NCBI GenBank assembly: GCA_020725335.1
Contig: DYFF01000007.1
Coordinates: forward strand, 1-64,000
Source of the DNA: Thermodesulfovibrio sp.
GTDB lineage: Bacteria; Nitrospirota; Thermodesulfovibrionia; Thermodesulfovibrionales; Thermodesulfovibrionaceae
Direction of reading: 5' to 3'
Length of the DNA stretch: 64,000 nucleotides
This document shows positions 18,927 to 49,456 of this stretch, piece by piece. Each line of letters opens with the position of its first letter. Position 1 is the first letter of the stretch. Both the position numbers and the translations under genes were made by a program. Below the pieces are notes generated by a model. That model worked only from the letters and a program-made list of their open reading frames with translations. It did no database searches and was not told the origin of the DNA.

Positions 18927-18955
18927 TTGACAAGAATAAAAATTATTTTTAGAAT
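18927..18955 (+). promoter_or_regulatory. Sigma-70-type promoter for the 19-kb leader
   Basis: TTGACA at 18927-18932 and TAGAAT at 18950-18955 are separated by exactly 17 bases. Transcription would start near 18962, about 105 bases before the methyltransferase gene. Confidence 0.75.
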
Positions 18956-18961
18956 ATAAAA

Positions 18962-19066
18962 ACTTAGTCAGAAGACTAATTTTTAAAGCCTATAGAATAA
19001 ATTAGAAAATTTAGTGGTCATGAAGGCCACAGTTTAGGAGAGAACTCCTGAACTGTGGCCTTTTTT
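18962..19066 (+). ncRNA. Structured leader RNA or small RNA ending in a terminator
   Basis: Between the promoter and the methyltransferase start is a roughly 105-nt RNA. Its 5' end holds a 6-bp hairpin (18964-18969 with 18974-18979, loop AGAA). Near its 3' end GTGGTC (19014-19019) can pair with GGCCAC (19025-19030), which are also the first bases of the terminator stem, so the two structures exclude one another. This is the expected geometry of a riboswitch or attenuator. It matches no riboswitch class I can recognise; a free-standing small RNA is the alternative. Confidence 0.6.
19023..19066 (+). terminator. Strong intrinsic terminator before the methyltransferase gene
   Basis: An 18-bp stem (19023-19040 with 19045-19062, one T-G pair), loop AGAA, then six T. 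The downstream ORF begins within 12 bases of it, so expression of that gene needs readthrough. Confidence 0.9.
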
Positions 19067-19068
19067 AT

Positions 19069-19779
19069 TTGAGTATGATAGCCAATGAAATAAAGAAAGT
19101 TTCTTACTGGAATGAATATGCTCGCTGGTATAAGCTTTGGAGAGAGCACAACAGTTATCATGAACCGATAAAGAATTTTCTTTTTAGCATGATTCATAAA
19201 GATATTAAAGTTTTGGATATAGGCGCTGGAGACGGTGTCCTTAGCTTCCCTTTGATAGAGAGAGGCTGTCACGTTACAGCTCTTGAACCTTCATCTGCTA
19301 TGCGCGATTATATGTTGAGGGAAGCTTTTGATAAGGGATTTTTTTTTGATATTGACTGTAGAAGATTTGAGGAATTAGATATTTTTGAATTAAAGCGATA
19401 TGACCTTGCTTTAGCCTGCAATAGTCTTCATCTTACCGAGGAAGGAATTGAAGCTGCAATGGATAAAATATTTAGTTCCGAAATAGAAAGTGTATTTCTT
19501 GTGACTGAGAAAAGTATTTCTATACGTAGGCTTTTATCAAAATTCCCACAGTATAAGCTTATATTTAATTATTCCTACTTTTGTGAAAGTTCATTTGCAT
19601 ATCACGATAAAGAGGAGATTTTTGATCACTGGCACATTAGGAAAAAGGTAAATATTTTTGACTGGAATATTGAAAAAATCCTGCGAAGCCTGGTCTATGA
19701 AAAAGGACACTTTTGGTTAAAAGAGTATGTGAATGTAAAAATATTTTATTGGAGGAGGGAGAAATTATTCAAAATTTAA
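19069..19779 (+). CDS. Class I SAM-dependent methyltransferase
   Basis: The 236-aa protein has a Rossmann methyltransferase core: motif I VLDIGAGDGVLSFPLIERG near residues 48-66, the acidic adenosine-binding segment VTALEPSSAMRDYM, and motif IV-like YDLALACNSLHL. The substrate is unknown. Possible starts are TTG at 19069 or ATG at 19075; neither has a clear ribosome site, because the terminator hairpin occupies the upstream bases. It is followed directly by a decayed TonB-dependent receptor, so it may once have belonged to a metal or corrinoid uptake locus. That link is inference. Confidence 0.75.
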   Translation: MSMIANEIKKVSYWNEYARWYKLWREHNSYHEPIKNFLFSMIHKDIKVLDIGAGDGVLSFPLIERGCHVTALEPSSAMRDYMLREAFDKGFFFDIDCRRFEELDIFELKRYDLALACNSLHLTEEGIEAAMDKIFSSEIESVFLVTEKSISIRRLLSKFPQYKLIFNYSYFCESSFAYHDKEEIFDHWHIRKKVNIFDWNIEKILRSLVYEKGHFWLKEYVNVKIFYWRREKLFKI

Positions 19780-20446
19780 TTTTAATAGTGTGTGTATCAT
19801 TTATGACCTCAATAACTTATGCAAGGAAAATATCTAAACTATATCGGCTTGACGAAATTACGGTATATGAGGAAAAAATCAAATAAGAGAAAGATATATC
19901 CAACTAATCAGTCATGATTCCTAAACTTCTTCTTTAGGGTATAATTTCAAGTCTTGAGGGAGTAATGCTGAGACATTCTGGGGTTTATGTTAAGAAACTT
20001 TAGCAGGATAGCGGGTGCTTTTGATGATGACTCTATTAAAAACAGAGATTTTGGAGCAAGAAGAATTGCTCTTGCCTATGATGGAAGACTTCTTAATACT
20101 ATAGGAACTGCCGCTTGCTATTTTATTGACTTGACTACTTTCCTCTTTCAAATATTGAAAAAATCTTTTTCATTAAGGGAGTTTCAGAACCAAGATATGG
20201 AAATACTCTTGGAGGAGTTATAAATCTAATACCTAAAAGACCAAAAAAGATGGAGATTGAGTTTCAGGATATGAAGGCAAGGTATCATACAGACAAATTT
20301 AGTTTTTTCTATTTATAGAAACCTTCTCAGTTTGAGTATTCAATAAGTGGAAACCATCTAAAAAGTGATGGTTATCTAATAAATGAAGATTTTGAGGTAA
20401 AAATTTTAAATTTCTATGTTGGTTACAATGTTTTTCAAAATTTATA
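19764..20446 (+). pseudogene. TonB-dependent outer-membrane receptor, decayed
   Basis: Pieces of one receptor lie in different frames. At about 19755-19885 is a signal peptide and receptor N-terminus (LILIVCVSFMTSITYA, then RLDEITVYEEKIK and a stop). Next come RIAGAFDDDSIKNRDFGARR with ALAYDGRLLNTIG, a plug-domain segment at about 19990-20130. The continuation in another frame reads IKGVSEPRYGNTLGGVINLI at about 20170-20235, followed by a beta-strand piece (FEYSISGNHLKSDGYLI). Frameshifts, stops and loss of most of the barrel (600-700 aa usual) show it is dead. The ORF at 19987-20223 is only one fragment. Confidence 0.85.
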
Positions 20447-49234: not shown

Positions 49235-49420
49235 TCTCCTCCCGCGAGGAATTTGGAAGCCAAAGGCTTCCGGCTGGATAGGTCTTCCGGCTTAGGGCTT
49301 AAGTTGCCTACTTGCCCACCTTCCCAGAGACATTGTCTCCAGTGGCTATTCGGGCTTTTGTTCCCAACACGGCTGCGGGGCAGCGGGGGATTTTCACCCC
49401 TCTTCCCTTAATTCCAGCTG
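49235..49420 (-). promoter_or_regulatory. Cobalamin riboswitch controlling btuB-btuF-cbiX
   Basis: On the minus strand the leader has the class signatures: GGGGTGAAAATCCCC with GCTGCCCCGCAGCCGT, the box AGCCACTGG at about 49336-49345, GGGAAGGTGGG and GCCGGAAGACC. The predicted aptamer is about 49270-49420. The last part before btuB holds a hairpin 49255-49261/49265-49271 and a small hairpin (TCCTC-GCGG-GAGGA) that covers the btuB Shine-Dalgarno. This suggests B12 binding blocks translation. Boundaries are approximate. Confidence 0.93.
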
Positions 49421-49426
49421 ATTGAA

Positions 49427-49456
49427 AGTATAGCAAAAACTGCTAAAATATTTCAA
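49427..49456 (-). promoter_or_regulatory. Promoter of the btuB riboswitch transcript
   Basis: On the minus strand TTGAAA (49456-49451) and TATACT (49432-49427) are 18 bases apart, giving a start near 49420, just before the aptamer. Confidence 0.65.

Follow-up and report, generated by a model that had tools for sequence, protein, structure and literature searches.

A probable dual-hairpin antitermination switch upstream of a methyltransferase gene in Thermodesulfovibrio, with relatives ahead of nickel/cobalt and TonB-system uptake genes

Introduction

NikR and cobalamin riboswitches are the usual explanations offered for nickel and cobalt uptake. The NiCo riboswitch, which belongs to efflux genes, has four stems, and guanidine-II RNAs (mini-ykkC) consist of tandem small hairpins with conserved loops, which must be ACGR, placed near a terminator or a ribosome-binding site. 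The nikKMLQO genes encode a nickel transporter that is controlled by NikR in delta-proteobacteria (PMC545781). In activating cobalamin riboswitches, the P13 hairpin functions as an antiterminator against the terminator of the same RNA (PMC10653944). Dual-hairpin elements of the ANTAR type are the targets of EutV, NasR, and AmiR, and their loops are hexanucleotides in which the first letter is A and the fourth is G (PMC3369931).

The leader described here lies in a stretch of 64,000 nucleotides of Thermodesulfovibrio sp. DNA (the window) and resembles each of these systems in part. As in ANTAR elements, two small tandem hairpins precede a terminator, one of them is mutually exclusive with it, loop letters are conserved, and several operons would be coordinated. 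However, the window leader and its family have C-G-closed ANGAA or NGNA loops that place A and G one or two letters apart instead of three, and an ANTAR target was therefore rejected; a search for ANTAR-domain proteins gave no match in the genus, its positive control also being without a match anywhere. As in the P13 platform, the 3' side of a short hairpin is common with the 5' arm of the terminator, so that stabilization of the hairpin would turn the gene on. In that platform, however, a corrinoid aptamer docks on the hairpin loop, whereas the window leader matches neither the RF00174 aptamer core, found among related sites only upstream of the site L051, nor any other Rfam family. Guanidine-II shares the tandem small hairpins with conserved loops, but its ACGR rule is not followed, AUGAA being about as common as ACGAA, and it was rejected on this ground; Rfam gives no match to it either. 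The NiCo riboswitch (czcD) and NikR share the theme of nickel/cobalt homeostasis; the former had no match among the leaders run against Rfam, and the latter is a DNA-binding repressor.

Architecture of the Window Leader

The promoter of the leader (Table 1) ranks first among 18 consensus matches in 4 kb, a number no higher than chance (15.5 expected), and a TTGACA -35 box occupies the equivalent relative position in 11 of the 12 leaders of this type found in the genus. Transcription would start near 18962, and the promoter is followed by a leader of about 105 nt, with the terminator just ahead of the methyltransferase open reading frame. The predicted fold of the transcript reaches -41.4 kcal/mol, versus -18.8 ± 3.2 kcal/mol in shuffled sequences (z -7.2). 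The terminator stem (19022-19063) comprises 19 pairs including G-U and a 4-nt loop, and is followed by a T-tract that stops a few bases 5' of the ATG at 19075 and is abutted by an in-frame TTG at 19069. No Shine-Dalgarno sequence is visible between the terminator and the methyltransferase ATG, either in the window (19064-19075) or in the other genus leaders; orthologs of the methyltransferase in other families of the order, unlike the genus copies, do have one.

Table 1. Features of the window and the six family sites known in its genome
Feature	Position	Strand	Basis or context
Sigma-70-type promoter, TTGACA-17-TAGAAT	18927-18955	+	11 of 12 consensus matches
hp1, UUAGUC-AGAA-GACUAA, 5' end of transcript	18964-18979	+	Fold; covariation
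hp2, GUGGUC-AUGAA-GGCCAC, putative antiterminator	19014-19030	+	3' half doubles as 5' terminator arm
Intrinsic terminator with T-tract	19022-19069	+	Stem and T-tract; covariation in genus alignment
Class I SAM-dependent methyltransferase, regulated gene	19075-19779	+	Pfam Methyltransf_25, E 6.9e-11
Decayed TonB-dependent receptor, stop codons and frame changes	19764-20432	+	tblastn with intact G014 fragment
Cobalamin riboswitch (RF00174) before TonB-receptor-like gene	49261-49447	-	Rfam match
Family site, window leader	C7:19012		
Family site	C7:128661		Receptor operon
Family site	C7:132417		Receptor operon
Family site	C18:195177		Porin gene
Family site	C3:49034		TonB-like gene
Family site	C6:106226		19-aa peptide

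The hairpin hp2 has 6 bp and the loop AUGAA, and its energy is -7.4 kcal/mol versus about -30 kcal/mol for the terminator. Since the terminator, which takes the 3' half of hp2 only, is so much more stable, termination would be the default outcome without help. The 17-mer of hp2, GUGGUCANGAAGGCCAC, is identical at 16 of its 17 letters in all 12 genus leaders, with a single variable loop letter, and no covariation occurs within these leaders; the pairing of the invariant hp2 is backed only by relatives, such as the four-hairpin leader of G001, in which the equivalent U-G pair is replaced by C-G. The second hairpin, hp1, is missing in 4 of the 12 leaders and covaries where present, with five of its six pairs changed on both sides among 7 distinct sequences. 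The terminator covaries as well, with 15 cells showing two-sided changes in a genus alignment that includes the L051 sequence, against 4.8 in shuffles. Within the 64 kb, hp1 and hp2 are the only C-(A)NGNA-G hairpins with a stem of at least 5 bp on the + strand, and the leader thus contains two hairpins of this kind, one of which shares sequence with the 5' arm of the terminator.

A sequence-only reading of this locus had proposed a near-consensus promoter followed by a leader of about 105 nt, in which a GTGGTC-GGCCAC pairing at 19014-19030 competes with an 18-bp terminator ending 2-8 bases before the gene. The consensus scan, the fold, and the energies agree with it, and the covariance search over related genomes that it had suggested found covariation in the terminator and in hp1, a hairpin absent from that reading. 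With a promoter, two mutually exclusive structures, and a terminator ahead of a gene, the stretch is confirmed as a real regulatory RNA leader of the cis-acting antiterminator/terminator type. Two other candidates were discarded: a leader peptide beginning in hp2 (AUG AAG GCC ...), whose frame is not preserved across genomes and whose AUG is missing in G006b and L051, and a CsrA target, as direct reading of the loops reveals no conserved GGA.

Association with the Methyltransferase Gene

The methyltransferase is present in 11 of 16 Thermodesulfovibrio genomes, each time with the leader immediately upstream, and one of these genomes has two copies, which gives the 12 leaders. The genes upstream of the leader vary among the genomes and the downstream gene is constant; thus, the leader belongs to the gene that it precedes, which speaks against a separate small RNA. 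In other families of the order, methyltransferase orthologs (34-43% identity) are also preceded by hairpin-array leaders, in the form called R3 below, and this links the window leader to the R3 family. The link rests on the orthologous downstream genes and the shared architecture, the two types having no alignable sequence apart from the hairpins.

Elsewhere, the orthologs lead ExbB-ExbD-TonB-receptor-CobN or receptor operons. In G055, where gene names were partly read from the sequences, the order is methyltransferase-exbB-exbD-tonB-receptor-SBP-FecCD-ABC, with CobN further along. At G055:C53:31312-31368 (L252/L221) and at L294, copies of the leader are also found upstream of an ADP-heptose epimerase gene close to the methyltransferase operon; this gene seems to be an outlier in the regulon. 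In the window, a tblastn search with the intact receptor fragment located behind the G014 methyltransferase identified the next gene as a pseudogene, in agreement with the dead TonB receptor reported from the sequence alone, and its decay implies that the methyltransferase has been retained without the receptor. Both the ortholog operons and this receptor remnant place the leader ahead of nickel/cobalt or TonB-uptake genes or their operon partners.

Related Leaders Across the Order

The covariance model R1 detected a second tier of sites in the genus genomes, consisting of leaders of about 118 nt with four hairpins, CCC-A[CA]GAA-GGG, GGUC-AUGAA-GGCC, GACUC-AUGAA-GAGUC, and CUCUC-(A)NGAA-GGGAG, the second of which overlaps the terminator. 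These leaders, whose alignment had an insertion removed from one row (G001), precede TonB receptors, binding proteins, BtuC-type permeases, CobN, and TrmO-like proteins. Model R2 recovered the four-hairpin leaders of the genus, added one from a different family of the order (G297), and detected weak but architecturally clear relatives. Five of these relatives (two porin-nikK, two TonB, and one methyltransferase leader, with no CbiM leader) were used to train model R3. In the R3 form, the whole hairpin AAGCC-AYGAA-GGCUU, in contrast to only the 3' half of hp2 in the window leader, constitutes the 5' arm of the terminator, and AAGCYUUCRUGGCUU constitutes the 3' arm.

At E ≤ 0.05, R3 matched 128 of the 176 genomes in the order, which fall into 62 of its 85 genera; many E-values were below 1e-7. 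E-values of such short-calibrated models are rough, and matches near the threshold will include chance terminators. Most of the first downstream genes (n = 87) are nickel/cobalt-uptake or TonB-system genes. The counts are 17 CbiM, 16 OprB-like porins, 11 TonB, 11 methyltransferases, 8 outer-membrane proteins (several ahead of cbiM), and 5 receptor plugs. In most loci that were read far enough, a nikK-like gene comes after the OprB-like porin. The first genes are mostly CbiM/NikM, porin-nikK operons, TonB/ExbB, TonB receptors, and methyltransferase orthologs; about one fifth of the matches lie ahead of genes without an evident link to metal uptake.

Terminator covariation extends beyond the 12 genus leaders. 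In the order-wide R3 alignment, the C/U letter of the loop varies together with the opposite letter of the terminator (C-G 69, U-A 56, U-G 3, other 2), some rows being reads of one near-palindromic site from the opposite strand and the alignment having been fitted to the terminator structure. Within the 5' hairpin, G-C pairs change to A-U in 6 rows. Between the arms there is a further hairpin, whose stem is free to vary and whose loops, with a closing C-G pair in 63 of 82 cases, are AGAA, AGCA, AUGAA, UGAA, or ACGAA. Leaving out the hairpin demanded by the model, the leaders show a 17-28 fold enrichment of the loops NGAA, AGNA, and ANGAA; of six control loops, four do not occur and two have just 3 cases and 1 case. 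The covariance searches thus show a larger family of tandem hairpins with C-G-closed (A)NGNA loops, one of them overlapping the 5' arm of the terminator, with the window leader as a short, diverged branch.

A Syntrophobacterales contig from a metagenome-assembled genome (binning taken as given) extends these observations outside the order. On it, the 17-mer form follows a cobalamin aptamer at a distance of 150 nt and precedes FecCD-ABC-CobN (L051), and a CUGGUC-AGAA-GGCCAG hairpin with a terminator precedes a nikK-like gene, the model match of the latter alone being weak (E about 1). Neither the window leader nor the R3 leaders, where Rfam was run, match an Rfam 15 covariance model, and no description of the motif was found in the open-access literature searched. 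The family is thus previously unlisted relative to these sources, in line with the failure of the sequence-only reading to assign a riboswitch class.

In at least 15 of the 16 genus genomes, a site matches a locus with a conserved 19-aa open reading frame, MIKKVSGK[AP]MPTCKCK[GSN]SC (G000:C6:106226; L191, L218), with this sequence in most of the 11 copies read. Its leader has a terminator of its own and three AUGAA hairpins, of which the last covers the ribosome-binding site. The peptide may possibly bind metal or RNA.

Some terminators found by R1 in other families were not counted, namely those before cspA, for which the Rfam cspA thermoregulator gives a match below the family cut-off, and those before a different methyltransferase, which lack paired hairpins. 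Also in other families, L112, L120, L124, L126, and L127 carry a different conserved leader, GCCGUGGCCGGAGG..GAUUCUAUUA..CUGUUA..GGCCACGG plus a terminator, mostly before another methyltransferase (MKWDA..YD type) and with no Rfam match above the cut-off; this leader is a candidate separate regulatory RNA. The cobalamin leaders of the order (L069, L071, L081, L083, L086, L087, and others) contain a second conserved block, GGAUGAAGYAAA.CNGGGUGCAAUCC, located some 100 nt past the aptamer and overlapping the terminator 5' arm.

Proposed Mechanism and Alternatives

Computation provides the promoter consensus, the mutual exclusivity of the structures, their conservation and covariation, the loop enrichment, and the membership of the regulon. 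On this basis, we consider it fairly probable that the leader is a switch of the dual-hairpin antitermination kind and belongs to a regulon for nickel/cobalt (and metal-chelate) uptake, with a putative tip-reading factor that would be on at metal scarcity. The first structures made by RNA polymerase would be a small hairpin or a pair of them, tipped with C-(A)NGNA-G. Sequence transcribed next would by default invade one hairpin to form the much stronger terminator, and the methyltransferase would stay off; a factor recognizing the tips, most probably a protein that binds RNA and is active when metal is scarce, would hold the hairpins and permit read-through. Since hairpin and terminator are mutually exclusive and the terminator wins by default, whatever recognizes the loops must act positively. 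Positive action on uptake genes, in turn, suggests a factor active at metal scarcity, so that an RNA-binding protein is preferred over a metal-sensing aptamer. That the tips are bound, that a protein binds them and responds to nickel or cobalt, and that binding turns the genes on are steps that we infer, and the gene content points to nickel/cobalt as the metal.

The sign of regulation also weighs on a direct riboswitch, in which the ligand, a metabolite or metal ion (Ni2+, Co2+, or a corrin intermediate), would bind to the tandem hairpins themselves in the manner of guanidine-II. Strongly conserved loops on variable stems and the single nutrient theme of the regulated genes would suit such an RNA, but stabilization of the hairpins by an imported metal would switch its uptake genes on, which is the wrong sign for sensing it; the interchangeability of 4- and 5-letter loops is unusual for an aptamer, and the shortest leader, G006b, has a single hairpin. 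These points make direct sensing unlikely. In G006b, roughly 14 nt precede GTGGTC, which leaves no room for a conventional aptamer and renders a trans-acting factor, or a ligand reading small hairpins, likelier than a classical aptamer domain.

Still less probable is a terminator without regulated read-through, which would simply hold the methyltransferase at a low level or mark the end of a short independent RNA. The stability of the terminator relative to hp2 would fit, as would the accumulation expected of a product of about 105 nt and a methyltransferase without a visible ribosome-binding site; nevertheless, the leader travels with the methyltransferase and not with its upstream neighbors, GUGGUC, the upstream half of hp2, never varies even though the terminator can do without it, and the architecture recurs ahead of functionally related genes. 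A cobalamin riboswitch remnant that has lost its aptamer is very improbable, for although hp1 (AGUCAGAAGAC) resembles the B12 box and L051 lies behind a real aptamer, the hp1 stems covary away from that box, 24 cobalamin leaders of the order have a different platform in which the 17-mer is absent within 4 mismatches, and R3 leaders have no aptamer match where Rfam was run.

With tip-dependent antitermination as the preferred reading, the switch controlled by a metabolite or a protein that had been suggested from the sequence alone stands as a cis-acting antiterminator/terminator leader, not as a solitary riboswitch, since it is a branch of an order-wide hairpin-array family. Of the ligands then considered (a metal, a cobamide, or a siderophore), metal or cobamide points in the right direction, because the family precedes nickel/cobalt and TonB-dependent uptake genes. 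A broader proposal, which we hold more tentatively and at somewhat less than even weight, is an order-wide regulon acting after transcription initiation, in which a putative RNA-binding factor would read C-(A)NGNA-G hairpin arrays and coordinate nickel/cobalt acquisition. This factor could even be the conserved 19-aa peptide.

Significance

The whole order appears to use a route to nickel/cobalt uptake control other than the usual ones, namely an RNA hairpin code read during transcription. The analysis yields a list of the regulon and a defined RNA motif, it points to a genus that has members in culture as a place to look for the factor, and it ties an uncharacterized methyltransferase family to metal uptake.
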